64,000 nucleotides of DNA from Actinomycetales bacterium (GTDB lineage: Bacteria > Actinomycetota > Actinomycetes > Actinomycetales > Microbacteriaceae). Below the pieces are notes generated by a model. That model worked only from the letters and a program-made list of their open reading frames with translations, was not told the origin of the DNA and did no database searches. Both the position numbers and the translations under genes were made by a program. The DNA lies in the NCBI GenBank assembly GCA_017308515.1, contig JAFKEN010000006.1, positions 416,479-480,478 of the forward strand, written 5' to 3'. This document shows positions 248 to 24,992 of this stretch, piece by piece; within the stretch, counting starts at the first letter, position 1; every line of letters starts with the position of its first letter.

Positions 248-1171
248 GTGTTCGCCTCCCGCCCGGCCGCCCCGGGCACCCTCGCCGGGTTCGCGGTCGT
301 GACCGACCGGTTCGTGGGCCTGCTCGGCTCCGACAGCGACGCGGGCGTCGCGGTCGAGCTCTACCGGCTCCTCGAGGAGCCGACGACGCGCCTGTCCGAC
401 GTGCTCGACGTGTTCGCCTCGGTCGGGGCGATGCGGGCCTTCGCGCTCGTCGAGGTGCGCGATCCGGCACGGCGCGTGCTGCACGTCGCGGTCTGCGGCG
501 ATGTCGCGGTGGAGCTGCCCGGCGTCGACACGCCGTCCGCCGCCGAGCCGGGAGCGATCTGGTTCGACGGCGAGGTCCGCGGAGTGGAGAGCCTGCTGCT
601 GCGGGTGGGGGTGCCCGACCCGCGCTCGAGCGTCGCGCTGCCGATCCGCCGCGGCGTCGTCGCGGCCGCGGAGGTGCGCTTCGACGAGGAGCACGACGCC
701 CCGTCGACGCTGCGCGCCGAGGACGGCGTCCGCCTGAGCACGCAGTCGATCGAGCTGCCGCGCGCGGCCGAGGCGGATGCCGTGGGCACCGCGGCGCCGG
801 ACCCGGCCGCGTCCGGCGCGGGGGCGCCCTCGCCCTCGTGGCTGCTGCGGCTGCCCGACGGCGGGGAGCTCGAGCCGCGCTCCCGGCTCGTCTTCGGGCG
901 GCGGCCGTGGCGCACGGATCCGGAGGAGACCGCGACCGGCTACGTGCTCGCCCCCTCGCCGCGCCGGGAGATCTCGTCGGTGCACCTCGAGGTCGCGCCG
1001 AACGGCGCCGAGCTGCACGCGCGCGACCTCGGATCCACCAACGGCACCCTCGTCGAGAGCCCCGGCCGGGCGCCCCGCCTGTTGCGCGACGGCCGCTCCA
1101 CGATGCTGGCCGAGGGTGACGTGCTCGACCTCGGCGAGGGATTCCGGGTGCACGTCGGCCGGGGCGGGTGA
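248..1171 (+). CDS. FHA-domain protein
   Basis: A 307-residue cytoplasmic protein with a C-terminal forkhead-associated domain (about residues 195-305). The FHA core motifs are visible: the FGRR strand, SSVHLEV and DLGSTNGT. FHA domains bind phosphothreonine peptides, so this is a likely reader of the kinase encoded next. The N-terminal 180 residues are a mixed alpha/beta region that I cannot assign; they may be a remnant of a phosphatase-like or other sensor fold. The GTG start gives the longest plausible frame, with only a weak Shine-Dalgarno. The stop overlaps the kinase start by 4 bases (GTGA), so the two are translationally coupled. The protein is the first full gene of the cluster that runs to 14108. 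Confidence 0.8.
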   Translation: MFASRPAAPGTLAGFAVVTDRFVGLLGSDSDAGVAVELYRLLEEPTTRLSDVLDVFASVGAMRAFALVEVRDPARRVLHVAVCGDVAVELPGVDTPSAAEPGAIWFDGEVRGVESLLLRVGVPDPRSSVALPIRRGVVAAAEVRFDEEHDAPSTLRAEDGVRLSTQSIELPRAAEADAVGTAAPDPAASGAGAPSPSWLLRLPDGGELEPRSRLVFGRRPWRTDPEETATGYVLAPSPRREISSVHLEVAPNGAELHARDLGSTNGTLVESPGRAPRLLRDGRSTMLAEGDVLDLGEGFRVHVGRGG

Positions 1172-2307
1172 GCATGCCCTCCCGTCGCCCCGCCCGCCCG
1201 CCGGTGCTCGCCGGGTACAGCTACGTGCGCCCGCTCGGCTCGGGCGGCTTCGCCGACGTCTACCAGTACCAGCAGGACATGCCGCGCCGGGTGGTCGCGG
1301 TCAAGGTGCTCGTCGACGACGCGATCGACCCCGAGGTGATCCGGGTCTTCAACGCGGAGGCCGACGTCATGGCCCGGCTCTCCGCGCATCCCTCGATCGT
1401 GAACATCCACGAGGCGAGCATCTCGAGCGACGGCCGGCCCTACTTCGTCATGGAGTACTGCCCCGATTCGATGAGCGCGCGCTACAAGCGCGGACCGCTC
1501 CCGGTGGCCGAGGTGCTCGACGTCGGCGTGCGGATGGCGGGCGCGCTCGAGACGGCGCACCGGGCGGGGGTGCTGCACCGCGACATCAAGCCCTCGAACA
1601 TCCTCCTCACCGGGCTCGGCGCGCCCGTGCTCGCGGACTTCGGCGTCGCCACCGCGCTCGCCGGCGAGCACGACGAGGAGCAGGTCTTCGCGATGTCGGT
1701 ACCGTGGAGCGCGCCCGAGGTGCTCGAGGAGGTCGACACCGGATCGGTCGCGACCGAGGTCTGGAGCCTCGGCGCGACGCTCTACACGCTGCTCGCCGGC
1801 CGGGCCCCCTTCGAGGCCCCCGAGCGGGAGCGCAACCGGCCCGAGCAGATGACGCCGCGCGTCGTGAAGGCGCGCTACACGCCGCTCGGCCGCGACGGCC
1901 TGCCGCCCCGGGTGGAGGCGATCCTGCAGCGCACGATGGCGAAGGATCCGAGCCGCCGCCACGAGTCGATGCAGGCGCTCGGCGAGGAGCTGCGCTGGGC
2001 ACAGTACGAGGCGGGGCTGCCCCCGACGGCGCTCGAGGTCGCCGCACCGGAGTGGGTGATGGCCGAGGCACCGATCGACTTCCGCGCCGAGGAGGCGCGC
2101 GGCCCCGTGATCTCGACCGTGCAGCGCGACTCCCGCCGCGCCGCGCGCGCCGCCTCGGCCGCCCGCGTGCGCCGCCCCGACGACTCCCTGCCGCGGCCGG
2201 CACCGCGGCCCTCGCCGTGGCGACCCGCGCTTCTGGGCGCTCTCGTGGGTGCCGCCGTGCTCGGCGTCGTCGGCGCCCTCGTGCTGTGGGCGACCGGGGT
2301 GCTCTGA
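1168..2307 (+). CDS. Membrane-anchored Hanks-type serine/threonine protein kinase
   Basis: A 379-residue kinase that should phosphorylate Ser/Thr residues on partner proteins. The kinase domain fills residues 17-285: glycine loop LGSGGFADVY (23-32), ATP-anchoring Lys46 in VAVKVL, catalytic HRDIKPSN with Asp139, metal-binding DFG at 157-159 and an APE motif after a short activation segment. About 50 Arg/Pro-rich residues follow, then one C-terminal transmembrane helix (ALLGALVGAAVLGVVGALVL) that leaves almost nothing outside the cell. Unlike PknB it has no extracellular sensor, so input may come from a partner, perhaps the giant surface protein encoded next. It overlaps the FHA gene by 4 bases and the next gene by 1 base (TGATG). 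All catalytic residues are present. Confidence 0.9.
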   Translation: MSMPSRRPARPPVLAGYSYVRPLGSGGFADVYQYQQDMPRRVVAVKVLVDDAIDPEVIRVFNAEADVMARLSAHPSIVNIHEASISSDGRPYFVMEYCPDSMSARYKRGPLPVAEVLDVGVRMAGALETAHRAGVLHRDIKPSNILLTGLGAPVLADFGVATALAGEHDEEQVFAMSVPWSAPEVLEEVDTGSVATEVWSLGATLYTLLAGRAPFEAPERERNRPEQMTPRVVKARYTPLGRDGLPPRVEAILQRTMAKDPSRRHESMQALGEELRWAQYEAGLPPTALEVAAPEWVMAEAPIDFRAEEARGPVISTVQRDSRRAARAASAARVRRPDDSLPRPAPRPSPWRPALLGALVGAAVLGVVGALVLWATGVL

Positions 2308-5300
2308 TGGCGCGGGCGGGGCGAGCGGCCGGGGCGGCCGCCCGACGGCGGGGAACCTCCGCGCGCGCCAGGCGGAATCCGCTGCTGCGCCGCCGGGTGC
2401 TCGCGGCGACGGCGGCGACCGCCGCGGCCGCGACCCTCGTGACCCTGGCGGTGGTCGCCGGCGGCTACGACGCCCAGGAGGTGCCGCCGCTCGAGCCCGC
2501 CGTCTGGGTCACGCGCGACGCGGGCCAGTACGCGCGCGTCAACACCGAGGTCGGCGAGATCGACACCGTGCGCAGCGTCGACGATCCGAGCGGCGTCGTG
2601 CAGTTCGGCGCGCAGAGCGTGCTGTTCACGCATGGCTACGGGCAGGCCTGGCCGATCGACCCGGCGCGGCCGCTCGACGTGCTCGGCAGCGCCGCGGAGT
2701 CGGGCGCGCCGGGGGTCGCGGTGGGCGCCCCGACCCCGACCGGCACCCGGGCCGTGGTCTCGGCGGGGTCGTGGGTCGTCTACCTGACCGACCTCGGCAC
2801 GGTCTACGTCGCCGACCTGCGCGAGGGCGCGGCCACCGGCCCGCGGCTCGTCGATCCGTTCCGCGACGTCGAGGTGGTCGAGGGCCGCGAGCCGCCCAGC
2901 TACCGCGCGAGCGCCGTCGCGGTCGACGACGCGGGCCGGCTCGCGCTCTACTCGGCGGCCGAGGGTGCGGTGCGCCGCTACGACGCCGCGCGCGACGCGT
3001 TCACGGGCGTCGACGAGGTGACCTCGGCGCCGGAAGCCGAGGCGCGCGTCGAGCTGACGCTCGTGGGCGGCCGATGGGTGCTCTCCGACCCGGTCGCCGG
3101 GCGGCTCGTCGTCGAGGGCCGCTCCGACCCGATCGCGACCGGGCTCGGGCCGGATGCGGTGCTGCAGTCCGGCGCGGCGAGCGGCGACCGGGTGCTGCTG
3201 GCCGACTCCGGAGCCCTGCTCGCGGTCGACCTGGGCAGCGGCCGGAGCGAGCGGCTGGCCGACGGGGCCGGGGTTCCGGCGCGCCCCGTCGTCGTCGCCG
3301 GCGTGCCGACCGCCGCCTGGGTCGGGCCCGACCGCGGGGTGCTGTGGACCGCGGAGGGCGGTGCGGTGCCGCTCGAGGTCCCCGCCGGGACCCTCGACGA
3401 GGTCGACGCGATCCGGCCCGAGATCCGCAGCAACGGCGACCGGGCCGTGCTCAACGAGACGGCCTCCGGTCTGCTCTGGAGCATCCCGACCGGCGAGCTG
3501 ATCCCCGTCGACGAGTGGGCGATCGACGACACCGCGCCGCGCGAGACCGGCACGGTCGAGGTCGACGATGTCGCCGAGCAGGAGCCGCCGGTCGCCGTCG
3601 CCGACGCCTTCGGGGTGCGCGCCGGCGCGCTCGTCATGCTGCCGCTGCTGCTCAACGACCACGACCCGAACAAGAAGGACGTGCTGACGATCGACGGCGG
3701 CTCGGTCGCCGGACTCGACCCGTCCTTCGGCGAGCTGAGCCTCGCGGCCGACGACCAGCAGGCGGTCGTGCGGGTGCGGGCGGGCGCCGGCTCGGCCTCC
3801 TTCGTCTACGCCGCGACCGACGGGATCGCCGACTCGCCCCCGGTGACCGTGACCCTGACCGTCGTGCCCGACGAGCAGAACGCGCCGCCCGAGTGGTGCG
3901 GGGTCGAAGCCTGCCGTCAGGAGTGGCCCGCGCCCGCGATCGCCCCGGGCGGCGCGGTCACCGTCCCGGTGCTGCCGGGCTGGGTCGACCCCGACGGCGA
4001 CCCCTTCGTGCTGAGCGACGCGAGCCCCGTCGACCCCGATGCTCCCGTCACCGTGGTCGCGACCGGCGACGGCCGCATCGTCGTGCGCCACCAGGATCCG
4101 AACGCGGCCGACGAGCTCATCCCGATCGCCGTGACGATGACCGACGCCCGCGGCGCGAGCGCCACCAAGACCCTCGACCTGCGCGTGCAGTCCACGCCCG
4201 CGCTCGTGGCCGAGCCGGTCGCGGCGATCGTCGGCGTCGGGCAGACGGCCGCGGTCGACGTGCTCGCCCACGTGCGCGGGGGGTCCGGCTCGTTCCGCGT
4301 GGTCGACGCGGTGCTGAGCAGCGCCGGCGCCGGCATCACGGTGGCGCCCAACGCCTCCTCGGGCCGCGTCGACCTCACCGCCGACCGGCCCGGCGACTAC
4401 GCCATCAGCTACACCGTCGAAGACGGCCTCACCCAGGCGCGCCAGTCGGCGCTGCTGCGGGTGACGGCGGTGGGCCCGGGCGCTCCGCTCGCGATCGCGC
4501 CGCTCACCGCCTTCGTGCGCGCGGGCGAGGACACGACGGTCGACGTGCTCGCCGCGGTGCAGAACACGAGCGGTCGGGTGCTCCTGGTCGCGCAGGCCGC
4601 GAGCGACGATCCGGCGCTCAGCGTCGACGTCGTCGGCCAGTCGCGCGTGCGGGTGAGCGGCACGACCGCCGACGGGGCGCCGGGGCGGGTCGGCACGGCG
4701 AGCTTCACCGTGGTCGACGGCGCGGGCGCCCAGGTGGTCGGCGAGCTGACGGTGTTCCTGGTCGCCGCGACGACGGGCGTCGACCCGATCACGATCCCCG
4801 ACACGGCCCTCGTGCGCGCGGGCGAGCAGGCCGACCTGCCCGTCCTGGCCAACGACGTGAGCCCGCGCGGCGAGCGGCTCGTGCTGCACCCCACCCTCAC
4901 CGGCTCGGGGGCGCCGGGCGAGCTGGCCTTCGTCGCGGGCGATCGGATCCGCTACCTGGCGCCGCCGGATCCGGGCGTCTACACGCTGCGCTACAGCGCC
5001 TACCTCGAGAACGCCCCGGAGCGGCTGGATGCGGCGACCGTCACGGTGACCGTGCTGCCCTCCGGCGGCAACCGCCCCCCGCAGCCGCCGCTGCTGTCGG
5101 GGCGGGTGCTCTCCGGTCAGAGCGTCTCGATCGCCGTCCCGAGCTCCGGGATCGACCCGGATGGCGACCGCGTGGTGCTCGCCGATGTCGACCAGCCGCC
5201 GGCCGGCGGCGGCGTGGCCGCCATCTCGGCGGAGGGCGACGCGATCGTCTACACCGCGCCGGGCGACGGGGTCAGCGGCGGCCAGATCTCGTTCGGGTAC

Positions 5301-8300
5301 ACGGTGCGCGACTCCGAGGGCGCCACCGCGACCGGGCGGGTGCGGGTGGGCGTGCTCGACGCGCGCGCCTCCGATGTCGCGCCGGTCACCTACTCCGACT
5401 ACATCCGCGCCCAGGTCGGCTCGGCCTCGCCGGTCACCGTCATGCCGACGCTCAACGACCGCGACCCGCTGCAGGGGGCGCTGCAGCTCGTCTCGATCGA
5501 GCCGAACGCGCCGGCCGGCAGTCCCGAGTACGCGCGGCTCGCGGCGCTGCTCGACGCGGACACCGACCTCGACGCCGGCGTCGTCCGGGTGCGGCCGGGG
5601 GACGTGCTCGGCACCCAGTCCTACGTCTACACGGTGTACTCGACGGCAAGCTTCAGCACCGCCCAGGGCCTCGTGGTGGTCGCGGTCGCCGAGGATCCGG
5701 CTCCCGACGCCCCGGTCGTCAGCGACACCGTGGTCACCGCCCGCACCCGCGGGCAGCTCGCGGAGGGCATCGACGTCGTCACCGACCGCGTGCAGTGGGC
5801 GACCGGGAACGTCGACGATCTGCGCCTGTCGGTCTGGGGCCCGCAGGCCGAGAGCTACCGGGTCGACGGCCGCCGGATCGCGGGTCCGTTCCCGGCGGGC
5901 GGCGCCATCGTGCCCTTCGCCCTCACCGGCGCGGGCCCCGACGGCCCGGTGACGAGCTACGGGTTCCTGCGGATCCCCGCCCTCGACGACCTGCGCCTCC
6001 AGCTGGCCGGCGACGCGGCCCCGATCGAGGTGCCGGAGGAGCAGTCGACGCGCTTCGCGGTGCGCGCGCTGCTCGACCTCGTCCCCGAGGACGAGATCGA
6101 GATCCGCGACGACGCCGCCTTCGCCGTGCAGCGCGACGCCGCGTCATGCTCCGCGGTGTCCGCGACGCGGGTCGAGTACACGGCGGGGCGCGAGGCGCCG
6201 TGGTCCGACACCTGCACGGTGCCGGTGCGCCTCGTCGGCCAGAGCACCTGGACGCTGCTGGGCGTGCCGATCGCGATCGCGCCGAAGGATCCGCAGGCGG
6301 TGCTGAACCCGCTCAGCCGCACCGTCGCGCCGGGCGCCACCGAGACCGTCGACCTCCTCGACGAGCTCGTCTCCTGGGAGGGCGGCCGGGTCGGCGACCT
6401 CGCGCCGCTCGTGTTCCGCACGAGCCACAGCGGCTCCGCCTTCCTCGTCACCCAGAACGGCGGCACCGTGACCGTGCAGGCGCGCGCCGACGCCCGGCCG
6501 GGCACGCGCGAGATCGTGCAGGTGACGACGCCCGGCTACGGCGGGCTCGCGGCGGGCATCTCGCTCGTCGTCGGCGTCGCCGCGCCCGACGCCCCGCGCG
6601 GCGCGGTCTTCACCCAGCAGTGCGACGTGAGCGCCGGTCCCACCTGCACGGTCGCGGTGATCGGGCGCGCCGGGCAGTACGACCCCTTCGAGGGCGCGCC
6701 GGGATCCGGCCTGACCCTCGCCGGAGTGGGCGCCGCGGGCGCCGCCGGGGCCGCCGGGACGGCGGGTGTCACCTGCTCGGTCGCGACCGTGACGGCCGCG
6801 AACGACCGCGAGATCGTCGCCACCTGGCCGCCGGGCCCCCGGCCCGAGGGCGGCACCTGCGTGGTGCCGTACACGGTCGCCGACGCGCAGCAGCGCACCG
6901 GCCCCGGCCAGCTCACCCTCGACGTGCTCGGCTACCCGCAGCCGCCCGCGACCGTGACGACGGTCGCCTACACCGGCACGAGCGTGACGCTCTCGGTTCC
7001 GCTCGGTCCCGCCGCGCTCGCCCACCCGGCGACCACGGGGGTGGCGATCTACGAGAACGGTGCGCCGGTCGCCGCGAGCTGCGCGCCCGGCGGCGCGAGC
7101 GAGTACCGCTGCGTCGTCTCCGGTCTCGTCAACGGCGAGCAGCACCGGTACACGGCCCGCGCGGTCAACGCGATCGGCGAGTCGCTCGACACGAGCGCGC
7201 ACCGCACCTCGGCCTACGCGAAGCCGGTGGTGACGGGCCTGGTCGCCACCTCGATCTTCCAGCCGGGCACCACGAGCGCCACGACGGGCGTCGTGCGGCT
7301 CGCCATCACCGCGGCCGACGACGCGCAGTCGTATCGGATCCTCGACGGCGGCTCGGTCGTCACGACGGTGTCGCGCACGGGGGCCACCACGACGACGAAC
7401 GTGAGCCTGAGTCCCGGCCCGCACGTGCTCGAGGTCGTGCCGATCAGCCGGTTCTCGCCCCCGATCGCGGGCAGCTCCGAGGGCGATGCGACCTCGACCT
7501 CGGCGCTCGCGGTGGGATCCCCGGTGCCCCGCGCCGCCGGCACGGTCACCGCGACCGCCGACTCGCTCACCCTCGACGGGGTGGTGTTCGACGCGAACGC
7601 GAGCCCCGCGCCGCTGAGCGTCACGTACTACGTGTGGGACTCGGGGAGCCCGACCTGCACGGCCACGGCCTCCGGCGACCACGTCGTCACCGGCGCCTTC
7701 GCGACCTCGACCACCCCGACCGTGAGCGGGCTGCCGACCAACCGCGAGTTCCGGATGGCGGCGTGCGCCTCCGCCGGCTTCGGCGCGGCGTCCTCGACCG
7801 CGCAGGACACCTTCACCTTCCAGGCCCCGCCCGCGCCGACCGGAACGCTCAGCTACAGCGTCGGCACGTCGCCCAGCCGCAGCGGCACGACCTACCGCTA
7901 CGCCGACGTCGCCGAGCCGAGCCTCGACAACCGGCCGGCGGGCTTCACGCCGCTGTACTCGGTCGACGGCGGCCCCCTCGACACGAGCCTCACCCTCTCG
8001 GCCGCCTCCGCGCCGAGCACCGTCGACGTGCGCTACTGCACCTGGCTGCGCGGAGGCTGGCGCTGCGGTCCGGCGGCCGCGCTCGCCGCGGCGACCGCCC
8101 CGACGATCGCGCAGGCGACCTTCCCGTCGAACGTCTTCGGCTGCACGGGCACCGGCGACCCGAGCGACGTGCAGATCTCGGGCGCGGCGGCCGGGTCGGC
8201 GACCGTGACCGTGACGCCCGGCCCCGGCGGCTTCGGCGGCCCGGAGTGGATCTACGACCTCACCTGGAGCGGCCCCTTCGCCGCCCTGCAGCCCCTCACC

Positions 8301-8315
8301 GGCGTCGAATGCTGA
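2307..8315 (+). CDS. Giant Ig-like/fibronectin type III surface protein
   Basis: A 2002-residue protein with an Arg-rich cytoplasmic N-terminus, one transmembrane helix or uncleaved signal anchor (about 31-52), and a very long extracellular part. Residues 55-400 show repeated short beta motifs resembling a propeller. From about 425 there are many tandem cadherin/Ig-like modules with the recurring signatures LLNDHDP, VDPDGDPF and LNDRDPL. A fibronectin type III-like module lies near 1545-1640 (YTARAVNAIGES), and the rest is beta-rich with paired cysteines. There is no sortase signal. The likely role is adhesion, scaffolding or envelope sensing, but no ligand can be predicted. The ATG overlaps the kinase stop by one base, so the kinase and this protein are made together. 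Expect about 200 kDa. I chose this start because the frame upstream of it is a shadow of the kinase. Confidence 0.8.
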   Translation: MARAGRAAGAAARRRGTSARARRNPLLRRRVLAATAATAAAATLVTLAVVAGGYDAQEVPPLEPAVWVTRDAGQYARVNTEVGEIDTVRSVDDPSGVVQFGAQSVLFTHGYGQAWPIDPARPLDVLGSAAESGAPGVAVGAPTPTGTRAVVSAGSWVVYLTDLGTVYVADLREGAATGPRLVDPFRDVEVVEGREPPSYRASAVAVDDAGRLALYSAAEGAVRRYDAARDAFTGVDEVTSAPEAEARVELTLVGGRWVLSDPVAGRLVVEGRSDPIATGLGPDAVLQSGAASGDRVLLADSGALLAVDLGSGRSERLADGAGVPARPVVVAGVPTAAWVGPDRGVLWTAEGGAVPLEVPAGTLDEVDAIRPEIRSNGDRAVLNETASGLLWSIPTGELIPVDEWAIDDTAPRETGTVEVDDVAEQEPPVAVADAFGVRAGALVMLPLLLNDHDPNKKDVLTIDGGSVAGLDPSFGELSLAADDQQAVVRVRAGAGSASFVYAATDGIADSPPVTVTLTVVPDEQNAPPEWCGVEACRQEWPAPAIAPGGAVTVPVLPGWVDPDGDPFVLSDASPVDPDAPVTVVATGDGRIVVRHQDPNAADELIPIAVTMTDARGASATKTLDLRVQSTPALVAEPVAAIVGVGQTAAVDVLAHVRGGSGSFRVVDAVLSSAGAGITVAPNASSGRVDLTADRPGDYAISYTVEDGLTQARQSALLRVTAVGPGAPLAIAPLTAFVRAGEDTTVDVLAAVQNTSGRVLLVAQAASDDPALSVDVVGQSRVRVSGTTADGAPGRVGTASFTVVDGAGAQVVGELTVFLVAATTGVDPITIPDTALVRAGEQADLPVLANDVSPRGERLVLHPTLTGSGAPGELAFVAGDRIRYLAPPDPGVYTLRYSAYLENAPERLDAATVTVTVLPSGGNRPPQPPLLSGRVLSGQSVSIAVPSSGIDPDGDRVVLADVDQPPAGGGVAAISAEGDAIVYTAPGDGVSGGQISFGYTVRDSEGATATGRVRVGVLDARASDVAPVTYSDYIRAQVGSASPVTVMPTLNDRDPLQGALQLVSIEPNAPAGSPEYARLAALLDADTDLDAGVVRVRPGDVLGTQSYVYTVYSTASFSTAQGLVVVAVAEDPAPDAPVVSDTVVTARTRGQLAEGIDVVTDRVQWATGNVDDLRLSVWGPQAESYRVDGRRIAGPFPAGGAIVPFALTGAGPDGPVTSYGFLRIPALDDLRLQLAGDAAPIEVPEEQSTRFAVRALLDLVPEDEIEIRDDAAFAVQRDAASCSAVSATRVEYTAGREAPWSDTCTVPVRLVGQSTWTLLGVPIAIAPKDPQAVLNPLSRTVAPGATETVDLLDELVSWEGGRVGDLAPLVFRTSHSGSAFLVTQNGGTVTVQARADARPGTREIVQVTTPGYGGLAAGISLVVGVAAPDAPRGAVFTQQCDVSAGPTCTVAVIGRAGQYDPFEGAPGSGLTLAGVGAAGAAGAAGTAGVTCSVATVTAANDREIVATWPPGPRPEGGTCVVPYTVADAQQRTGPGQLTLDVLGYPQPPATVTTVAYTGTSVTLSVPLGPAALAHPATTGVAIYENGAPVAASCAPGGASEYRCVVSGLVNGEQHRYTARAVNAIGESLDTSAHRTSAYAKPVVTGLVATSIFQPGTTSATTGVVRLAITAADDAQSYRILDGGSVVTTVSRTGATTTTNVSLSPGPHVLEVVPISRFSPPIAGSSEGDATSTSALAVGSPVPRAAGTVTATADSLTLDGVVFDANASPAPLSVTYYVWDSGSPTCTATASGDHVVTGAFATSTTPTVSGLPTNREFRMAACASAGFGAASSTAQDTFTFQAPPAPTGTLSYSVGTSPSRSGTTYRYADVAEPSLDNRPAGFTPLYSVDGGPLDTSLTLSAASAPSTVDVRYCTWLRGGWRCGPAAALAAATAPTIAQATFPSNVFGCTGTGDPSDVQISGAAAGSATVTVTPGPGGFGGPEWIYDLTWSGPFAALQPLTGVEC

Positions 8316-8343: not shown

Positions 8344-9309
8344 ATGACGATCGCGCCCGAGCAGGCGAGCTGGTTCGCCGACACCTTCGGTCTCATCGCC
8401 GACAACATGGAGCAGGCCCTGCTGGGCAAGCGGCACGTCATCGAGCTCGTGCTCGCCGCCGCCCTCAGCGAGGGCCACGTGCTGCTCGAGGATGTGCCGG
8501 GCACCGGCAAGACCGCGCTCGCGCGGTCGCTCGCCCAGACCATCCGCGGCACCTCCACGCGCGTGCAGTTCACGCCCGACCTGCTGCCCAGCGACATCAC
8601 CGGAATCCGGGTCTTCGACCAGAAGCGCGGCGAGTGGGAGTTCCACGCCGGGCCGATCTTCGCCAACGTCGTGCTGGCCGACGAGATCAACCGCGCGAGC
8701 CCCAAGACCCAGTCCGCCCTGCTCGAGGTGATGGAGGAGGGCAACGTGACCGTCGACGGCGTCACGCGCGAGGTGGGGGCGCCCTTCGTCGTGATCGCCA
8801 CCCAGAACCCCGTCGAAGCCGCGGGCACCTACCGTCTGCCCGAGGCGCAGCTCGACCGCTTCATGGTGCGGATCGCGATCGGCTACCCCGACGACGCGTC
8901 GACCCTGCGCATCCTGCAGGGCGTCGCCCACCCCCGGAAGACCGTCGAGGGCATCGTCGAACTGGAGCGCATGATGCAGCTCATCGAGCTCGCCCGCACG
9001 GTGCAGCTGAGCCCCCTCATCTCCGACTACGTGATGCGACTCGTGGATGCCACCCGGCGCGCGAGCGAGGTGCGGCTGGGCGTGAGCGTGCGCGGCGCGA
9101 TCTCGTTCGCCCGCATCGTCATGACCTGGGCCGCCTCCCGGGGCCGCACCTACGCCACGCCGGACGACGTACGCGCCCTCGCCGTGCCGACCCTCGCGCA
9201 CCGGCTCATCCTCGAGCCCGAGGCCGAGTTCGACGGGGTCACGGCGGTCGACGTCGTCGGCCAGGTGCTCCTCGACGTGCCGCCGCCGGTGGAGAACGGC
9301 ACGGCCTGA
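8344..9309 (+). CDS. MoxR-family AAA+ ATPase
   Basis: A 321-residue chaperone-type ATPase. Walker A is GTGKT at 53-57, Walker B is VVLADEIN near 115, sensor 1 is VIATQNPVE, and the C-terminal AAA lid follows. MoxR ATPases typically act with DUF58 or VWA proteins to mature or activate envelope complexes. A DUF58 gene and a transglutaminase-like gene directly follow, the classic MoxR-DUF58-TGase arrangement. The ATG at 8344 is preceded by GAGAGGA at good spacing. The 28-base gap from the giant protein suggests one operon. Confidence 0.92.
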   Translation: MTIAPEQASWFADTFGLIADNMEQALLGKRHVIELVLAAALSEGHVLLEDVPGTGKTALARSLAQTIRGTSTRVQFTPDLLPSDITGIRVFDQKRGEWEFHAGPIFANVVLADEINRASPKTQSALLEVMEEGNVTVDGVTREVGAPFVVIATQNPVEAAGTYRLPEAQLDRFMVRIAIGYPDDASTLRILQGVAHPRKTVEGIVELERMMQLIELARTVQLSPLISDYVMRLVDATRRASEVRLGVSVRGAISFARIVMTWAASRGRTYATPDDVRALAVPTLAHRLILEPEAEFDGVTAVDVVGQVLLDVPPPVENGTA

Positions 9310-9311
9310 GC

Positions 9312-10652
9312 ATGACGACCCCCAGCCGCACGGGAGCCGCGACCCGTACGCGCACCGCCACGCTGAGCGTGCGCGCCGGCGCGGGCGACCGGCGTGCGGG
9401 CGCGACCCGGCTGCGGCGCGCGGTGCGGCGCGCCGGGCACGCGACGCGGGAGGCCGCGCGCTGGTTCGGCGGCACGGTCACGGCCGCCGGCTGGCTGCTG
9501 CTCGCCGTCGTGGCGCTCGGCGTCGCCGGCGGGCTCGGGTTCGGATGGGTGGAGGCCTGGGTGGCCGCGGCGGGCGCCGGCACGCTGCTGCTGCTGTGCG
9601 TGCCGTTCCTGCTCGGCGCGCACGACTACGGCGTGAGCCTCGCGCTCGCGCGCGACCGGGTCGTCGCGGGCACCGAGGTCGAGGGCGAGGTGCAGGTCGT
9701 CAACCGCTCGGTGCGGCCCGCGCTGCCGGGGGTCGTCGACATCCCGGTCGGTGAGGGACTGCTCGACGTGCAGGTGCCGCTGCTGCGCGGGCGGGCCGAG
9801 CACCGGGCGGCCGTGACGATCGAGGCGCGGCGGCGTGGGGTGATCCGGGTCGGGCCGATGACGATCGCGCGCGGCGACCCCCTCGGGGTGCTGCGGCGCG
9901 AGCTGGCGTGGCCCGAGGTGCGCGAGATCTACGTGCATCCGGTGACGGTGCCGATCCCGAGCGCCAGCGCAGGGCTCGTGCGCGACCTCGAGGGCGCCCC
10001 GACGAGCGATCTCGTCGACGCCGACCTGTCGTTCCACGCCATCCGCGAGTACGTGCCCGGCGACGCCTACCGCCACGTGCACTGGGGATCGACCGCGAAG
10101 ACCGGGCGGCTCATGGTGCGCCAGTTCGAGGAGACGCGCCACTCCCGCGTCGCCGTGCTGCTCGACCTCGTCGCGGAGGAGTTCGCGGGAGACGACGAGT
10201 TCGAGATGGCGGTCAGCGCGGCCGCGTCGCTCGCGCTGCAGGGCATCCGCGACGGGCGCGAGGTGCTGGTCGCCTCGAGCGCCGCCGCGCGCGAGGGGGA
10301 GGGTCGGGTGCGCGAGCTGCGCCGGCACGCCGACCGCGACGTCCGGTCGCTGCTCGACGATCTCGCCACGGTCGAGCGCCACCCGCTCGCGATGCCGCTC
10401 GACGCGCTCACCCGGCTGACCCGGCAGGGGTTCCCCGAGCTCTCGATCGCCTTCCTCGTGGTCGGCTCGCGAACGCCTCTCGTGCGTCTGCGCGCGGCCG
10501 CGCTGGCCTTCGGCTCGGGCGTCGCGGTGATCGCCGTCCGCTGCGAACCGGGCGCGCCGCCCAGCCTGCGTTCCGCGCGCGAGGCGCAGGTGCTCACCCT
10601 CGGCGCGCTGCACGACCTCACCCCGATGATGGCGCGGGGGGTCCTCGGATGA
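9312..10652 (+). CDS. DUF58-domain membrane protein
   Basis: A 446-residue protein with a basic N-terminus, two transmembrane helices (about 55-100) and a cytoplasmic DUF58 domain. The family hallmark is visible: REYVPGDAYRHVHWGSTAK, then a VWA-like fold containing VAVLLDLV. DUF58 proteins are partners of MoxR ATPases; their molecular task is poorly defined. The ATG at 9312 lies 2 bases after the MoxR stop, so I prefer it to the long upstream shadow frame. It overlaps the next gene by ATGA. Confidence 0.88.
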   Translation: MTTPSRTGAATRTRTATLSVRAGAGDRRAGATRLRRAVRRAGHATREAARWFGGTVTAAGWLLLAVVALGVAGGLGFGWVEAWVAAAGAGTLLLLCVPFLLGAHDYGVSLALARDRVVAGTEVEGEVQVVNRSVRPALPGVVDIPVGEGLLDVQVPLLRGRAEHRAAVTIEARRRGVIRVGPMTIARGDPLGVLRRELAWPEVREIYVHPVTVPIPSASAGLVRDLEGAPTSDLVDADLSFHAIREYVPGDAYRHVHWGSTAKTGRLMVRQFEETRHSRVAVLLDLVAEEFAGDDEFEMAVSAAASLALQGIRDGREVLVASSAAAREGEGRVRELRRHADRDVRSLLDDLATVERHPLAMPLDALTRLTRQGFPELSIAFLVVGSRTPLVRLRAAALAFGSGVAVIAVRCEPGAPPSLRSAREAQVLTLGALHDLTPMMARGVLG

Positions 10653-13150
10653 CCGACGAGCGCACCGCCGGACCCGCCCTGACCCTGTGGGGTCTCGGCT
10701 ATCTCGTGCTCGTGCTCGGGGTCGGGATCGCGACCGCCGTCGCGTGGCCGATCTACGCCGGCCCGCGCCTCGTGCTGGTCGCGGCCGTCGGCACCGCGAT
10801 CGGCATCGGCTCCGCCCTCCTGCCCGCCCTGACCGGCCGCCCCGGATGGCTCACCCCGCTGCTCGCGGCGGTCGGCTACCTCGCCGCGGTCGTCCCGGTC
10901 GCGGTGCCCTCGGCGCTCGGCGCGCCGCCCGCGGTGCTCGGCGGGCTGCGCGACGGCGTGCTCGGGCTCGTCGTGGGCTGGAAGCAGCTGCTGACCCTCG
11001 CGCTGCCGCTCGGGGAGTACCAGGCGGTGCTGGTGCCGTTCTTCGGGCTCGTGACGGGGGGATCCCTGCTGGCCGCGTGGCTCATCGTGCGCGAGCGCCG
11101 CGCGACGCCGCTCGCCGCGGGGGTCGTGCTCGTGCTCGTCGCGTTCGGGCTCGTGTTCGGCTCGAGCGAGACCTCGGCGTCGTGGACGCTCGCCGGGTGG
11201 CGCCTGCCGGCGGTGCGGGAGATCGCGCTGGTCGGCGCGGTCGTCGTGCTCTCGGTCGGCTGGCTCGTCGGCCGCGCGCGTCTGCGGCGGCGCCGCGCGA
11301 TGCGGGCCGTGCAGGCGAGCGCGGGTGTGCGGCCGGGCTCGGCGACCCGGGTGCTGCGCGCCCGGCGACGCCTCGTCGCCGCCGTGCTCGTGCTCGTCGC
11401 GGTGGCGACGGGTCTCGCCCTCGCGCCGCTCGCCGAGGCCGCCACGGCGCGGCAGGCGTTGCGCGACCGGGTCGACCCCTACCTCGTGCTCCAGCGGCAG
11501 CCCAGCCCGCTCTCCGCCTACCGCGCCGCGTTCCAGGGCGCGGCGTACGGCGAGACGCTCTTCACGGTCGCGCCGGCGCCCGGCGCCTCGACCGGCGCCT
11601 CCGGGGGCGTCGATCGACTGCGCATCGCGACGCTGGGCTCCTACGACGGCGAGGAGTTCCGCGTCGCCGGCGGCGAGGATGCGGCCCGCTTCACCCGACT
11701 GCCCGGCGGCGCGGCGGGCGGCGAGCTCACGATCACGCTGGGCGCGGCCTCCGACGGCATCTGGGTGCCCATCCCCGCGGGACTCGCCGCCGCGCCCCGC
11801 TTCGAGGGCGACCGGGCCGGTGCGCTCGCGGACGGCTTCTACCTCGACGCGGCGGGCGGCGCCGCGATCGACGTCGCTCCGCGCGACGACGGGACCCGCG
11901 GCTTGGCGCCGGGCGACCGGTACGCGGTCGCGCCCGGCCCGACGCCCGACGCGGGCGGCTTCGCCGCCGCCGCGGGAGGCGACCCGCTCCTCGACCCCGA
12001 GGAGCACCCCGAGCTCGCGGCCTGGGTCGCCCGGCAGGCGGTGCCCCGCACCGGCGCCGGACTCGCCGACCTCGTCGAGCGGCTGCGGGCCCGCGGGTAT
12101 CTGAGCCATGCGCTCGCCGAGGGACCCGACTCCGCCGGATGGATCGCCGACCTTCAGGAGCGCGGCGCCTACTCCTTCGCGGCGAGCTACTCCGGCCACT
12201 CGACGGCGCGGATCGAGGCGCTCTTCCGGGCGCTCAACGAGCAGGAGCGGCGCGCCGGATCCGACGCCGACCCCGCCCTCCTCGTGGCCGCCCCCGGCGA
12301 CGACGAGCAGTTCGCCGTCGCGGCCGCGCTCCTCGCGCGCGCCCTCGGATTCGACTCCCGCGTCGTGCTGGGGGTGCGCCTCGGCGCGACCCCCGGCGAT
12401 CTCGGGGTGCCGGCCTGCACGGGAACCTGCACGGGCGGGGAGCTCACGGCGTGGGTCGAGGTGCGCTCGCCGACCGGGGGGTGGGCCGTGCTCGATGCGA
12501 CCCCGCAGTTCGAGCTCGCCCCGATCGCGCTCGACGAGGGCGAGAAGCTGCCGGAGAACCCCACGATCCCGGAGGTCCCGCGCAGCGACCTCCTCGAGCC
12601 GCCCTCGGCGCAGCAGAGCGACGACGACGCGGCCCCGCTCGAGTCGCCCGCCCCGCCCTGGTGGGAGCCGCTGCTCCCGGCGCTGCGCACGGTCGGGGTC
12701 GTCGGGCTCGCCGCGCTGCTCGTGGCGCTGCCGGCGCTCGCGGTGCTGATCGTCAAGCGACTGCGTCGCCGCGACCGGCGGCGCCAGGCCGTGCCCGAGG
12801 TCGCGCTCGTCGGCGCCTGGAGCGAGCTGATGAGCCGCTATGCGGATGCCGGGCTCGCCCCGCCCGATCGGGCGACCCGCACCGAGATCGCGCGCGCCCT
12901 CGGCCGTCCGCGCGCCGCCGACCTCGCCGAGCGGGTCGACGCGGCGGTGTTCGGCGAGCATCCTCCCGACGCCGCGCAGGCCGCCGCCGCCTGGCGACTC
13001 GTCGACGAGGAGCTCGACGAGCTCCGGGCCGTCGCGGGCCTGCCGCCGCGGATGCGCGCCGCCCTCAGCCTGCGATCCTTCCTGCGCGATCTCGCTCCCG
13101 TGCGGCACGCCGTGCTCCGCGCGGCGCCGCGACTCGTGCGCCTGCGCTGA
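10649..13150 (+). CDS. Transglutaminase-like membrane protein with a degenerate active site
   Basis: An 833-residue protein. The N-terminal third has five or six transmembrane helices, followed by a large extracytoplasmic domain, a further helix near 680-705 and a cytoplasmic tail of about 125 residues. The extracytoplasmic part includes a transglutaminase-core region (about 500-620). The family triad is Cys-His-Asp. Here the Cys position of the usual GxCEQFA motif is Asp552 (GDDEQFA), the usual HAWVEV reads LTAWVEV (Thr600), and only the Asp (Asp616 in VLDATP) remains. It is therefore probably not a protease or cross-linking enzyme but a binding or scaffold version. It is coupled to the DUF58 gene by an ATGA overlap and completes a MoxR-DUF58-TGase set. 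Confidence 0.85.
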   Translation: MTDERTAGPALTLWGLGYLVLVLGVGIATAVAWPIYAGPRLVLVAAVGTAIGIGSALLPALTGRPGWLTPLLAAVGYLAAVVPVAVPSALGAPPAVLGGLRDGVLGLVVGWKQLLTLALPLGEYQAVLVPFFGLVTGGSLLAAWLIVRERRATPLAAGVVLVLVAFGLVFGSSETSASWTLAGWRLPAVREIALVGAVVVLSVGWLVGRARLRRRRAMRAVQASAGVRPGSATRVLRARRRLVAAVLVLVAVATGLALAPLAEAATARQALRDRVDPYLVLQRQPSPLSAYRAAFQGAAYGETLFTVAPAPGASTGASGGVDRLRIATLGSYDGEEFRVAGGEDAARFTRLPGGAAGGELTITLGAASDGIWVPIPAGLAAAPRFEGDRAGALADGFYLDAAGGAAIDVAPRDDGTRGLAPGDRYAVAPGPTPDAGGFAAAAGGDPLLDPEEHPELAAWVARQAVPRTGAGLADLVERLRARGYLSHALAEGPDSAGWIADLQERGAYSFAASYSGHSTARIEALFRALNEQERRAGSDADPALLVAAPGDDEQFAVAAALLARALGFDSRVVLGVRLGATPGDLGVPACTGTCTGGELTAWVEVRSPTGGWAVLDATPQFELAPIALDEGEKLPENPTIPEVPRSDLLEPPSAQQSDDDAAPLESPAPPWWEPLLPALRTVGVVGLAALLVALPALAVLIVKRLRRRDRRRQAVPEVALVGAWSELMSRYADAGLAPPDRATRTEIARALGRPRAADLAERVDAAVFGEHPPDAAQAAAAWRLVDEELDELRAVAGLPPRMRAALSLRSFLRDLAPVRHAVLRAAPRLVRLR

Positions 13151-13173: not shown

Positions 13174-13545
13174 GTGAGCGCCGCCGAACCCGCCCCGGCT
13201 CCGGGGTCGTCGACCGCCGACTGGATCCTGCACGTCGAGGGCGGGCCGAGCCTGCCGCTGACCGCCACCCGCGTGCTGCTGGGCCGCGATCCCTCCGGCT
13301 CCGACCCGACCGCGCTCGAACTCGCGCTCGCCGACCCGTCGCGCACGCTCTCGAAGCTGCACGCCCTGCTCGAGTTCGAGGGCGGGCGCTGGATCGTCAC
13401 CGACCTCGACTCGACCAACGGCGTCGTCATCATCGAGGCGGACGGCGCCCAGCGCCTGCTGCCGCCCGGCGGGAGCTCCCCGGTCGCCGAGGGGTTCGTG
13501 CTCGGCCGCGTCGCCCTCCGTCTCGGCGCGCCCGGCATGCCATGA
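13174..13545 (+). CDS. Small FHA-domain protein
   Basis: A 123-residue protein that is almost entirely one FHA domain: LLGRDPSGSD, then LSKLHALLEF, then TDLDSTNGVV. It should bind phosphothreonine peptides made by the kinase at 1168. It has no other domain, so it is either a soluble adaptor or a clamp on a phosphorylated partner. The GTG start sits 6 bases after a TAGCCT element and has no Shine-Dalgarno, consistent with leaderless translation. It overlaps the next gene by ATGA, pointing to coupled synthesis with the repeat protein, its most likely ligand. Confidence 0.88.
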   Translation: MSAAEPAPAPGSSTADWILHVEGGPSLPLTATRVLLGRDPSGSDPTALELALADPSRTLSKLHALLEFEGGRWIVTDLDSTNGVVIIEADGAQRLLPPGGSSPVAEGFVLGRVALRLGAPGMP

Positions 13546-14108
13546 CCGGCTCCCGCGGGGACGACGACGAGGGCGAGGGCACGGTCCCCGTCGACCGCGC
13601 GGTGGTGCGCGACGATGGCACCGTGGTCGTCGACCGCGTTCCCGCGGAGGAGGGCACGGTGGTCGTCGACCGCGCGCCGCGCGCGGAGGATCGCACGGTC
13701 GTGATCGAGCGCGGAGGCCCCGCGGGCGAGCACGACACGGTGCCCGTCGACCGGGATCCGGGGCTCGCCGCGCCCGCCGACGCCGACGGGTCCGCCCGCC
13801 CGCCCGCCGTGCGCCGCCGTCGCCGCATCGTGCGCCCGCCCGCGACCGTCGCCGATCCGAGCGCGACCCGGGCCGGCAGCGGTCCGGACGCCGTGAGCGG
13901 CTATCCCCGACGCGAGCCGCCGGATGCCGCGCCGCCGGCGGAGGTCGCGTCGTGGAACACGGCCACCCGCGGCCCGGCGCCGTCGATGCCGAGCGTCGAG
14001 CGGCGCTCCCGGCGGTTCGGTGCGCTGGGGCTCGCGGCCCTCGTCGTCGCGGTCGTCGTCGCGGCCGTCGGCCTCGTCGCTCTCGCGGTCGTCGTCCTCT
14101 CCGGCTGA
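13542..14108 (+). CDS. Tail-anchored protein with five Thr-containing repeats
   Basis: A 188-residue protein that I do not recognise. The first 75 residues contain five copies of a TV[VP][VI][DE]R motif, with threonines at 14, 27, 39, 52 and 66, spaced 12-14 apart in an acidic context (for example EEGTVVVDR). A disordered Pro/Arg/Ala stretch follows, then one C-terminal transmembrane helix (about 163-187) with almost no residues after it. The repeats look like a tandem phosphoacceptor array for the cluster's kinase and FHA proteins; this is inference. The ATGA overlap with the small FHA gene supports a physical partnership. It ends 25 bases before the convergent two-component operon. Confidence 0.7.
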   Translation: MTGSRGDDDEGEGTVPVDRAVVRDDGTVVVDRVPAEEGTVVVDRAPRAEDRTVVIERGGPAGEHDTVPVDRDPGLAAPADADGSARPPAVRRRRRIVRPPATVADPSATRAGSGPDAVSGYPRREPPDAAPPAEVASWNTATRGPAPSMPSVERRSRRFGALGLAALVVAVVVAAVGLVALAVVVLSG

Positions 14109-19015: not shown

Positions 19016-20683
19016 ATGGCCTCCCTCTCCGAGATCCTCATCATCCGCGGCCTCATGCCGATCGAGACGATCGACCAGGTCAGCGGCGAGCCCGGCGCCG
19101 ACGAGGCGCAGGTGCGCGAGCTCGTCGAGCGCGGCATCCTGACCGAGAGCCAGGTCGCCTCCGCACGCGCCGCCGAGCTCGGTCTCGCCTTCGTCGACCT
19201 CACCGAGTTCCCGGTCGACCGCTCCGCCATCGCCCTCGTGCCCGCGGGGCTCGTGCGCCGTCACGACGTGCTGCCGATCGGGCGCGACGGCGCGTCGCTG
19301 CTGCTGGCGATGTCCGATCCCCACGACGTGCTCGCCCTCGACGACGTGCGTGCGAGCGTGCCGATGCCGGTGCGCCCCGTGCTCGCCGAGCGCAGCGATC
19401 TGCTCGCCGCGATCAATCGCTTCGTGCGCAGCGACGGCGAGCTCTCCGAACTGACCACCGCGATCGTCGAGGACTCCGACGCGAGCTCCACCGACGTCGC
19501 CCTGGCCGACAGCGTCGAGGACGACGCGCCCATCGTGCGCTTCGTCAACCTGCTCATCAGTCAGGCGATCCAGGATCACGCCTCCGACATCCACATCGAG
19601 CCCGCCGAGCGCGAGGTCATGGTGCGCTACCGCATCGACGGCGTGCTGCACGAGATGAACCGGGCGCCCAAGAACATCCAGAACGGCGTCATCAGCCGGC
19701 TCAAGATCATGAGCGACATCGACATCGCCGAGCGGCGCAAGCCCCAGGACGGCCGCATGTCGGTCATGCACGCCGGTCGCAAGATCGATCTCCGCGTCGC
19801 GACCCTGCCGACCGTGTACGGCGAGAAGGTCGTCATGCGGATCCTCGACAACTCGTCGACCGGCATGGGCATGGAGCAGCTGCGCCTGCTCGAGCGCAAC
19901 GCCGCCGTCTACCGCGAGTCGTACACGAAGCCGTACGGGATGATCCTCGTCACCGGCCCGACCGGCTCCGGCAAGTCGACGACGCTCTACACGACGCTCA
20001 ACGAGGTCAGCAAGCCGGAGATCAACGTCATCACCGTCGAGGACCCGGTGGAGTACCGCCTCGCCGGCATCAACCAGGTGCAGGTCAACCCGAAGGCGGG
20101 GCTGACCTTCGCGAGCGCGCTGCGCAGCATCCTGCGATCCGACCCCGACGTCGTGCTGATCGGTGAGATCCGCGACCACGAGACGGCGCAGATCGCGATC
20201 GAGGCGGCCCTCACCGGCCACCTCGTGCTCTCGACCCTGCATACCAACGACGCCCCGAGCGCCGTCACGCGCCTCATCGAGATGGACATCGAGCCCTTCC
20301 TCGTCGGCTCGGCGCTCGACTGCGTCGTCGCGCAGCGCCTCGCGCGCAAGCTCTGCGACCGCTGCAAGGAGCCCTACCAGCATTCGCCCGAGGAGCTCGC
20401 GCACCTGCGGTTCGCCTTCGACCCGCTGCACGGCATCCCGGTGCTCCACCGCCCGGTCGGCTGCTCCTCCTGCTCGAACACCGGCTACCGCGGCCGGATC
20501 GCGCTGCACGAGGTCATGCCCGTCACCGAGGAGATCGAGCGGCTCGCGGTCGAGCGGGCCTCCGCCGCCGAGATCGGGCGGGTCGCACAGGCCCAGGGGA
20601 TGCTCACCCTGCGGCAGGACGGCTGGATGAAGGCGCAACTGGGCATGACCTCGGTCGAGGAGATCCTGAGGGTCGTCGCATGA
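19016..20683 (+). CDS. pilB: Type IV pilus extension ATPase PilB
   Basis: A 555-residue GspE/PilB-type hexameric ATPase that drives pilin polymerisation from the cytoplasmic side of the membrane. The N-terminal MshEN-like region spans about 1-150. Walker A (GPTGSGKSTT) lies near 313, the Walker B/Asp box (DPDVVLIGEIRD) near 376-387, and the His box contains STLHTND. The zinc-binding cysteine set CDRCKEPY (near 447) and CSSCSNTGYRGR (near 484) is typical of PilB and absent from PilT. It is the first gene of the pilus cluster and overlaps pilT by ATGA. Confidence 0.95.
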   Translation: MASLSEILIIRGLMPIETIDQVSGEPGADEAQVRELVERGILTESQVASARAAELGLAFVDLTEFPVDRSAIALVPAGLVRRHDVLPIGRDGASLLLAMSDPHDVLALDDVRASVPMPVRPVLAERSDLLAAINRFVRSDGELSELTTAIVEDSDASSTDVALADSVEDDAPIVRFVNLLISQAIQDHASDIHIEPAEREVMVRYRIDGVLHEMNRAPKNIQNGVISRLKIMSDIDIAERRKPQDGRMSVMHAGRKIDLRVATLPTVYGEKVVMRILDNSSTGMGMEQLRLLERNAAVYRESYTKPYGMILVTGPTGSGKSTTLYTTLNEVSKPEINVITVEDPVEYRLAGINQVQVNPKAGLTFASALRSILRSDPDVVLIGEIRDHETAQIAIEAALTGHLVLSTLHTNDAPSAVTRLIEMDIEPFLVGSALDCVVAQRLARKLCDRCKEPYQHSPEELAHLRFAFDPLHGIPVLHRPVGCSSCSNTGYRGRIALHEVMPVTEEIERLAVERASAAEIGRVAQAQGMLTLRQDGWMKAQLGMTSVEEILRVVA

Positions 20684-24137: not shown

Positions 24138-24229
24138 TCTCACGCGAGGGATTCCTCCCCCCGGTTTGGGGACGCGGCGCGGGGCCTAACCCCCCCGGAC
24201 GCGGTATTACCGGGGCCGGGCGGCGTCTC

Positions 24230-24235
24230 TAGCGT
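24230..24235 (+). promoter_or_regulatory. Putative -10 element of the major pilin gene
   Basis: TAGCGT sits in the same CTAGCGTGA string as the pilB promoter and about 75 bases before the pilin ATG. A separate promoter fits the need for far more pilin than motor protein. Confidence 0.5.
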
Positions 24236-24293
24236 GAACCCGTGAGTCCAAACCGGTTGGGGGGACGGCTCGCAATCCAATCCGCAAACAAGC

Positions 24294-24300
24294 AAAAGGA
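24294..24300 (+). promoter_or_regulatory. Ribosome-binding site that fixes the pilin start at 24310
   Basis: AAAAGGA ends 9 bases before the ATG at 24310. The alternative ATG at 24301 directly abuts this site and could not be used with it. Confidence 0.65.
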
Positions 24301-24309
24301 ATGCAACTC

Positions 24310-24756
24310 ATGACTCGCATCGCTTCGGCGCTCCGCGCCCGTCTCGAGGACGTGAAGAAGAACGAGCAGGGCTTCACCCTGATCGAGCTCCTCGTCGTCG
24401 TCATCATCATCGGCATCCTGGCCGCGATCGCGATCCCGGTCTTCATCGGGGTCCAGAACAACGCGAAGGACGCCTCGGTCAAGTCCGACCTCGGCAACGC
24501 GAAGACCGCCGTCGTGGCGTACTTCACCGCGAACCCGACCGGTACGGTCGCCGCCGACGGCACGACCAAGACCGGCACGTCGGCCCTCTCCGACTACGGC
24601 TTCACCGCCACCTCCGGCAACCAGTTCAACTTCGGCTCGTCGGTGACGTCGACCTCGTTCTGCATCACGGGCAAGGGCGAGACCGGCAACTACTTCAACG
24701 TCACCGCGAACGGCGCGGTCGGCGACGGTGCCTGCACCGGCGTCACCATCCCGTAA
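24310..24756 (+). CDS. pilA: Major type IV pilin
   Basis: A 148-residue prepilin. A basic leader ends at Gly21, then mature Phe22 and the class-defining Glu26 (GFTLIELLVVVIIIGILAA), the hydrophobic helix that forms the pilus core. Cleavage and N-methylation by the peptidase encoded at 28857 would give a 127-residue pilin. The C-terminal part is short, Thr/Gly-rich, and has two cysteines (TSFCITG and DGACTG) that could form the usual disulphide loop. It has its own promoter and is followed by a hairpin that should reduce read-through into the minor pilins. Confidence 0.95.
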   Translation: MTRIASALRARLEDVKKNEQGFTLIELLVVVIIIGILAAIAIPVFIGVQNNAKDASVKSDLGNAKTAVVAYFTANPTGTVAADGTTKTGTSALSDYGFTATSGNQFNFGSSVTSTSFCITGKGETGNYFNVTANGAVGDGACTGVTIP

Positions 24757-24913
24757 GTCTCACGTCGGTGAGCGCGTGAGCGCTCGCCGCAGCGGGGGTC
24801 CCGGTCTCGCGATCGGGATCCCCGCCCACCGCCCCGACGGGGGCACGGCCGACCCCGGGGTCGGCCCTCCCGCATTCTCCGCGGACCCACCCGAAGGGCC
24901 CGTGACACACGGC

Positions 24914-24931: not shown

Positions 24932-24992
24932 CGCAGCACCCGCCGCTCGACCCGCGACCGGCGGCTCGCACGATGAACTTGGGGGTGAGTTC

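Follow-up and report, generated by a model that had tools for sequence, protein, structure and literature searches.

What might be the function of a small protein that carries five copies of a single threonine motif, ends in a predicted membrane anchor, and is encoded directly behind an FHA domain gene in a kinase cluster? The question arises from the 64,000-nucleotide stretch of a Microbacteriaceae contig analyzed here, which we refer to as the window, and it touches on two broader matters: the targets of bacterial FHA proteins, and the role of the kinase clusters that also encode MoxR, DUF58, and transglutaminase proteins. Our preferred explanation, which we consider likely on the strength of comparative sequence analysis, is that the protein serves as a membrane-tethered phosphothreonine array for the FHA proteins of its cluster.

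The genes of the cluster all lie on the forward strand, in the order FHA protein, kinase, very large Ig-domain protein, MoxR, DUF58, transglutaminase, FHA, and the Thr-repeat protein, which we call the tail protein. The first FHA protein (248..1171; Pfam FHA, E 1e-5) is an alternative candidate reader. It is followed by a Ser/Thr protein kinase, the likely writer (1168..2307; Pfam Pkinase, E 1.6e-43), in which HRD and DFG motifs and a C-terminal hydrophobic helix were recognized by eye. Next come the very large Ig-domain protein, whose start is approximate (2310..8315, frame from 2310; Big_9, E 2.7e-26), a MoxR-type AAA ATPase (8344..9309; AAA_3, E 1.9e-61), a DUF58 protein (9306..10652, approximate start; DUF58, E 1.4e-13), and a transglutaminase-type membrane protein (10649..13150, approximate start; Transglut_core, E 5.1e-10, and DUF4129, E 2e-5). 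The likely reader is a small FHA protein of 123 residues (13174..13545; Pfam FHA, E 1.9e-7) that retains GR, SKxH, and TNG. Its gene ends in ATGA, producing the 4-bp overlap with the tail gene that a first-pass annotation of this DNA had described; the kinase cluster named there is also borne out, with the kinase gene about 11 kb upstream of the tail gene in the same gene run.

The tail gene (13542..14108, forward strand) encodes 188 residues, and its translation contains the five TV[VP][VI][DE]R copies that had been called: GEGTVPVDR (T14; 13572..13598), DDGTVVVDR (T27; 13611..13637), EEGTVVVDR (T39; 13647..13673), EDRTVVIER (T52; 13686..13712), and EHDTVPVDR (T66; 13728..13754), spaced at intervals of 12 to 14 residues. 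The acidic setting and the hydrophobic +3 position attributed to these sites can be read directly from the sequence, as each Thr has two acidic residues among the preceding four, and Val occupies +3 in all but the T52 copy, which has Ile there. A tail anchor, likewise proposed at the outset, is predicted by hydropathy: a 19-residue window locates a single strongly hydrophobic stretch at residues 157-175, after RRSRR, in a segment that reaches the C terminus (residues 157-188; 14010..14105). Net charge is -11 across residues 1-80 and +8 across residues 81-158, and the layout is probably that of an acidic cytosolic tail, then a basic stretch, then the tail anchor.

Chance does not account for the repeats, because residues 1-80, when shuffled 200,000 times, yielded a single copy at best (no copy in 199,624 shuffles and one in 376), against the five observed. 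Nor are the copies the product of fresh DNA duplication, since they differ from one another by synonymous codons (ACG/ACC, GTC/GTG, and CGC/CGG). A motif scan of the window found that, within the cluster's coding strand, the motif occurs in the tail only. A scan of the organism's whole genome with a strict DNA pattern for [DE]xT[VI]x[VI][DE]R gave three matches, two in the tail gene and one in the EF-G gene; this pattern skips three of the five window copies, because their codons fall outside it.

Single-sequence searches with the window's tail yielded few matches because the tail diverges: at least 8 of 59 genomes at E 0.01, with values below 1e-10 in its own genome and G026 only. Synteny was therefore used to collect relatives, which were sampled as 80 MoxR-anchored loci. 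A downstream FHA gene is present in 53 of these, and adding the window and G026 gives 55 loci; an FHA match was present in 57, from which we dropped L003, a repeat of L010, and L044, where the FHA gene is upstream. The FHA gene is followed by a Thr-repeat protein in 43 of the 55 loci, window included, and the taxa involved are Microbacteriaceae (such as Microbacterium, Agromyces, Leifsonia, and Leucobacter), Demequina, and Cellulomonas. The start of the tail gene lies 4 bases inside the preceding gene in 35 of the 43, and a PP2C gene sits between FHA and tail in 41, the exceptions being the window and L056. Among the 12 tail-less loci, the PP2C gene is missing in ten and present in two, although three of the 12 (L058, L065, and L069) end 333 to 636 bases past the FHA gene, such that absence of the tail is not fully certain there. 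Six of the 12 have an unrelated next frame (L058, L065, L066, L077, L082, and L087) and six have no next frame (L069, L076, L080, L081, L088, and L089).

Where several reading frames competed for the same stretch, the tail was taken to be the frame richest in acidic-T motifs, which introduces a mild bias toward the motif; the choice is supported by a shared C-terminal region and C-terminal helix. By hydropathy, 40 of the 43 tails have a predicted helix at the C-terminal end only; of the others, L025 and L033 run off their contigs, and L064 has a second hydrophobic stretch. An alignment of 40 of the 43 tails (A1, excluding L025, L033, and L051) has a mean column identity of 21%; even so, Thr and Arg hardly vary in two repeat columns, and one Tyr and one Arg between the repeats and the membrane are invariant. 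A profile built from A1 matched at least 33 of 297 genomes of the order at E 1e-3, own genome included, with several of the weak matches covering the membrane end only; it matched at least 2 of 35 family genomes and at least 7 of 296 class genomes at 1e-6, own included. The order and class scans scored the best nine candidates per genome, and the taxonomic spread is accordingly a lower bound. Tested members of the family have no model in the catalogs searched: no match exceeded the cut-off in Pfam for four of the 43 tails (P0001, which is that of the window, L015, L013, and L090) or in NCBIfam for six of the 43. Below cut-off, DUF4690 reached 19.7 of 30.7 bits for the window's tail, and DUF3040 appeared for the same protein and for L013.

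The organism carries a second cluster of the same kind (L138; G000:C16:369000-388900), which comprises FHA, PP2C, kinase, very large protein, MoxR, and downstream genes; scanning it for the motif turned up no Thr-repeat tail. In a genome of the same genus, G001, the A1 profile found no tail match; the best MoxR of G001 sits in a cluster of this second, C16-like type.

The FHA proteins themselves usually bear the motif of the tail, acidic-T-V-V-V-x-R. Immediately ahead of the FHA domain, an acidic-T-[VIRLM]-[VILA] site is present in 50 of the 55 orthologues by pattern, and in 52 once L012 and L082 are added, where the motif lies upstream of the chosen start and was thus missed by the pattern count; DDLEATVVVDRRPRVRW in L015 is an example. 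Within these 55, the motif was not found in the window's protein or in L087 and L089, which are loci of Leucobacter chromiireducens in which loss of the FHA motif coincides with loss of both the PP2C gene and the tail. Leucobacter loci such as L065, L076, and L081 keep the FHA motif without a tail. An alignment of the FHA proteins (A2) displays a near-invariant Thr, but this partly reflects selection because the alignment omits L012, L082, L087, L088, and L089, most of them without a found motif, and 52 of 55 is the fair count. In an AlphaFold2 model of the L015 protein, which is phosphate-free, the motif is disordered beside the FHA domain (pLDDT about 60) and GarA-like docking was not seen; disorder is to be expected where there is no phosphate, and the model thus lends no support to docking. 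Doubled sites occur on an FHA protein too: in the second cluster type of G001, the protein of L167 (reverse strand, 467-1042) starts with two DDTVAV motifs.

The FHA domains appear equipped to read such sites. Arg in GR, Ser and His in SxxH, and Asn in NG are the phosphothreonine-binding positions of the FHA fold, and GR, S[KR]xH, and NG are kept in all 55 orthologues, window included. A fold search returned ordinary FHA domains, the nearest being CEP170, then ArnA, MDC1, FhaA, GarA/OdhI, and others. In 48 of the 55 loci the FHA protein is itself a predicted membrane protein (by hydropathy, from the most upstream start), and of the seven without a helix, L010 is cut by the locus end while L012 and L082 are interrupted upstream; the predicted membrane FHA proteins of L015 and L013 contain DUF5684. 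The window's locus is an atypical, stripped member of this group. It is without the PP2C gene that normally sits between FHA and tail, and its 123-residue FHA protein is a bare domain that lacks the membrane part, the linker, and the Thr motif found in most orthologues. Reading the frame upstream (junction at 13150) reveals a stop codon just ahead of this FHA gene.

A lack of Thr conservation among the repeats would have counted against the first-pass annotation, but the threonines are conserved. In the strict frame X[VI][VILP][VI][DE]R, the residue at X is Thr at 60 of 60 sites and never Ser, with the sites drawn from 25 of the 43 proteins and five of the 60 being the window's own. A looser frame, X[VIRLA][VILP][VIAML][DES]R, returns Thr at 100 of 107 sites, Pro at two, Gly, Glu, Asp, Leu, and Arg at one each, and Ser at none. 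In the loosest frame, [DE].X[VIL][VIL], Thr occupies 138 of 173 sites and Ser two, the remainder being others, mostly Val (11). Overall, the 43 tails contain 6.7% Thr and 6.5% Ser, and 15 Ser sites in the family match [TS][VIRL][VILA][VIRAMLS], of which six fall within a juxtamembrane LPSVARR stretch. Among the 186 T sites of the tails, -2 is Asp or Glu in 172, +3 is Val in 130, and +5 is Arg in 152, bearing in mind that residues +1 to +3 were constrained by the search pattern; some lineages (L049 and L090) have Arg at +3 instead of Val. Two or more sites are present in 41 of the 43 tails, and copy number ranges from 1 to 7 by the same rule, which undercounts, detecting only three of the window's five copies. 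We attach no p-value to the Thr counts because related loci and duplicated copies are not independent. Sampling of the loci is also uneven. In essence, Thr rather than Ser is the rule that a phosphothreonine-specific FHA reader would impose.

The FHA and tail motifs also vary in concert. Across 41 loci, their variants are correlated (Mantel r 0.47, p 0.0002), including when FHA-domain distance is removed (partial Mantel r 0.30, p 0.0006, n=41); an earlier permutation, uncorrected for relatedness, gave p 0.0025. The set leaves out the window, which has no FHA motif, and L053 and L073, which have no site pair, and adds G018; its site rule overlooked copies in L047. The own tail is nearer to the FHA motif than are the tails of distant loci in just 29 of the 41. 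By eye, L047 has DGTVVVSR in both the FHA protein and the tail, and L049 has TVVR in both. G018 (L168, reverse strand) provides the clearest illustration; its tail was detected by profile A1 at E 1.8e-9 and stood outside the motif-defining set, yet is among the 41. This tail spans 802 residues and has a hydrophobic stretch at its C terminus. Its 16 TVF[VIL] copies lie for the most part at intervals of about 30 residues, and the X of X[VI]F[VIL].R is Thr in 15 of 15 cases, against 42 Thr and 68 Ser in the protein. The FHA protein of G018 bears DDATVFVDR; Phe at +2 occurs in no other FHA motif of the covariation set and in one other tail site, while outside that set the FHA protein of L153 carries GHTQFR. 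Such covarying variants point to a writer, a reader, or both being shared between the tail and the FHA protein.

Other functions for the tail are conceivable, and the same observations bear on them. It is unlikely, in our estimation, that a kinase-written tail is read electrostatically or acts as a kinase or phosphatase sink, with multisite phosphorylation placing negative charge near the membrane. The net charge of residues 1-80 and the co-occurrence of a PP2C gene with the tail are in keeping with this proposal, and the sites partly resemble actinobacterial kinase sites: PknA-dependent Thr sites of M. tuberculosis are described as having acidic residues at -1 and -3 to -6, with +3 occupied by Leu or Val and +4 by Lys or Arg (PMC7164672), of which the tail sites share the upstream acidic residues and Val at +3, but differ in that acidic residues fall mostly at -2/-3 and Arg falls at +5. 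An electrostatic or sink function would, however, tolerate Ser, which is absent from the core in the stricter frames, and the motif is kept beside FHA domains too. We find it rather improbable that the repeats bind a partner independently of phosphorylation, as short TVVV beta strands in an acidic/Arg frame that could, for example, add to the edge of a beta-sandwich. A hydrophobic core of the TVVV type has high beta propensity, phosphorylation is deduced here from sequence, and a precedent may exist in GarA, whose phospho-independent FHA interactions are reportedly the subject of a 2009 study by Nott, to judge by its title; beta propensity alone would nonetheless permit Ser, Val, or Ile where the strict frame has Thr throughout. 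Drift of an acidic, disordered, low-complexity tail whose repeats grow and shrink without function is very improbable: tail length and copy number do vary, and some tails look recently expanded (L013 and G018), but the core remains TVVVDR-like as linkers diverge, copies differ by synonymous changes, and synteny is maintained.

We therefore return to the phosphothreonine array and how it may operate. A membrane Ser/Thr kinase, most likely the cluster's own, would phosphorylate the presumptive cytosolic tail at the Thr of each acidic-x-T-V-x-V-[DE]-R copy, and the FHA domains of the cluster would dock onto the phosphorylated copies. The repeat unit would represent a multiplied form of the site that precedes the FHA domain in most orthologous FHA proteins, such that the array could compete with, or cross-link through, that site, while copy number (1 to 7, and 16 in G018) would set valency. 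The output, we infer, would fall on the MoxR/DUF58/transglutaminase module. The organism's genome encodes five kinase matches over cut-off and six FHA matches, and so writer and reader could be others. With the local PP2C gene missing, phosphorylation could be reversed by a PP2C encoded elsewhere in the genome, at C5:101001 or at C16:371725, the latter being part of the second cluster on C16.

The idea of a phospho-switch read by FHA domains, as first put forward, gains support from the conserved Thr, the intact FHA binding residues, and the motif beside the FHA domain in 52 of 55 loci; the phosphorylation and binding steps within it are predictions. The accompanying idea, that the array gathers FHA proteins at the membrane, holds up in part. 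It fits the window, where the 123-residue FHA protein has no predicted membrane part and no site of its own and the motif is confined to the tail, and there recruitment of the FHA protein to the membrane is likely. As a general role it is unlikely, because 48 of 55 FHA proteins are themselves predicted membrane proteins; these loci are better explained by clustering, or by the array competing with the site on the FHA protein. Neither that site nor the phosphatase gene usually found between the FHA and tail genes was visible to the first-pass annotation. A bolder version, which we offer tentatively as a possibility, is that of an evolvable array that multiplies the FHA site up to 16 times, with kinase input switching FHA proteins between self-binding and membrane clustering, copy number serving as gain, and FHA proteins that bear both reader and motif polymerizing along the array into clusters at the membrane under kinase control.

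Several known systems offer points of comparison. In GarA/OdhI (Rv1827), a conserved N-terminal Thr motif (ETTS) is reported to precede the FHA domain on one chain and to be phosphorylated by protein kinases (PMC12321487). The motif-then-FHA layout recurs in the 52 orthologues, though not in the window's protein, and a profile of the FHA orthologues retrieves GarA and OdhI structures with E values of 2e-6 to 4e-5. The motif here is, however, TVVVDR-like rather than ETTS, the FHA proteins are mostly predicted to lie in the membrane, and many further copies of the motif are found on a second, tail-anchored protein. Orthology to GarA/OdhI was not found for the L015 FHA protein, which scored 16.7 bits against an NCBIfam OdhI cut-off of 200.

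Multivalent FHA scaffolds are already known in Rv1747 and MDC1. A review describes the FHA domains and linker of Rv1747 from M. tuberculosis as condensing on phosphorylation by PknF, with reversal by PstP (PMC9312465). Both systems combine FHA domains with a disordered region at the membrane, but in Rv1747 the FHA domains and linker belong to one ABC transporter chain, whereas here the array is a small protein with no detected enzyme or reader domain. MDC1 is described as a scaffold with several SDT phospho-repeats, which a single kinase writes and the FHA-BRCT region of NBS1 reads (PMC8079451). The likeness lies in a scaffold of repeated, here putative, phospho-sites for an FHA reader; MDC1 differs in being eukaryotic, CK2-written, based on pSer-Asp-pThr, and located on chromatin, and no homology is claimed. 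In the literature searched, we found no paper on the Thr-repeat tail protein or on a dedicated tail-anchored array protein, and nothing that combined Microbacteriaceae, FHA domain, and protein kinase. If our reading is correct, the tail would be a bacterial counterpart of the multi-copy phospho-scaffolds of eukaryotic DNA repair. The repeated site, which the FHA protein has as well, also offers a short ligand that can be tested directly, with the candidate writer and reader encoded in one cluster and a natural valency series at hand.

The surrounding genes recall the PFNA operon of Bifidobacterium, given as pkb2, fn3, aaa-atp, duf58, tgm, prpC, a seventh gene, and fha; its MoxR protein is a substrate of Pkb2, and the function of its seventh gene is stated to be not known (PMC8430577). 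In the window, too, a kinase gene is followed by those for a large surface protein, MoxR, DUF58, and transglutaminase (Pkinase, Big_9, AAA_3, DUF58, and Transglut_core). PP2C and FHA genes lie at the end of such clusters (as compared with loci L139 and L140), although in the order FHA-PP2C-tail in the tail-bearing relatives versus PP2C-seventh gene-FHA in Bifidobacterium. The window's large Ig-domain protein takes the place of fn3; fibronectin type III was not found in it, Pfam at E 1e-3 giving Big_9 and Cadherin_5 only. We considered whether the bifidobacterial seventh gene encodes the Thr-repeat tail and rejected this, as the proteins at L139, L140, L144, and L145, loci presumed from their gene order to be Bifidobacterium, are unrelated and have no membrane tail or repeats. 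In these seventh-gene products, PENPEFGANVAVNPRCYPGLKRW-like N-terminal and APELRVCIARNPNTYPALLDWL-like C-terminal segments flank a Gln/Pro/Ala-rich linker. The FHA proteins of L139 and L140 carry DIEDWDSTVL before the FHA domain, and the FHA-adjacent site may therefore predate the array.

Two further features of the window lie downstream of the cluster. Probable type IV pilus genes occupy 19016-32485, among them what we take, by eye, to be a secretion-type ATPase (19016-20683) and a prepilin-like protein with FTLIELLVV (24301-24756). Farther on, at 39399-39671, is encoded a small protein that starts with repeated KDVAGGVAEHAKEVAGG-like units.
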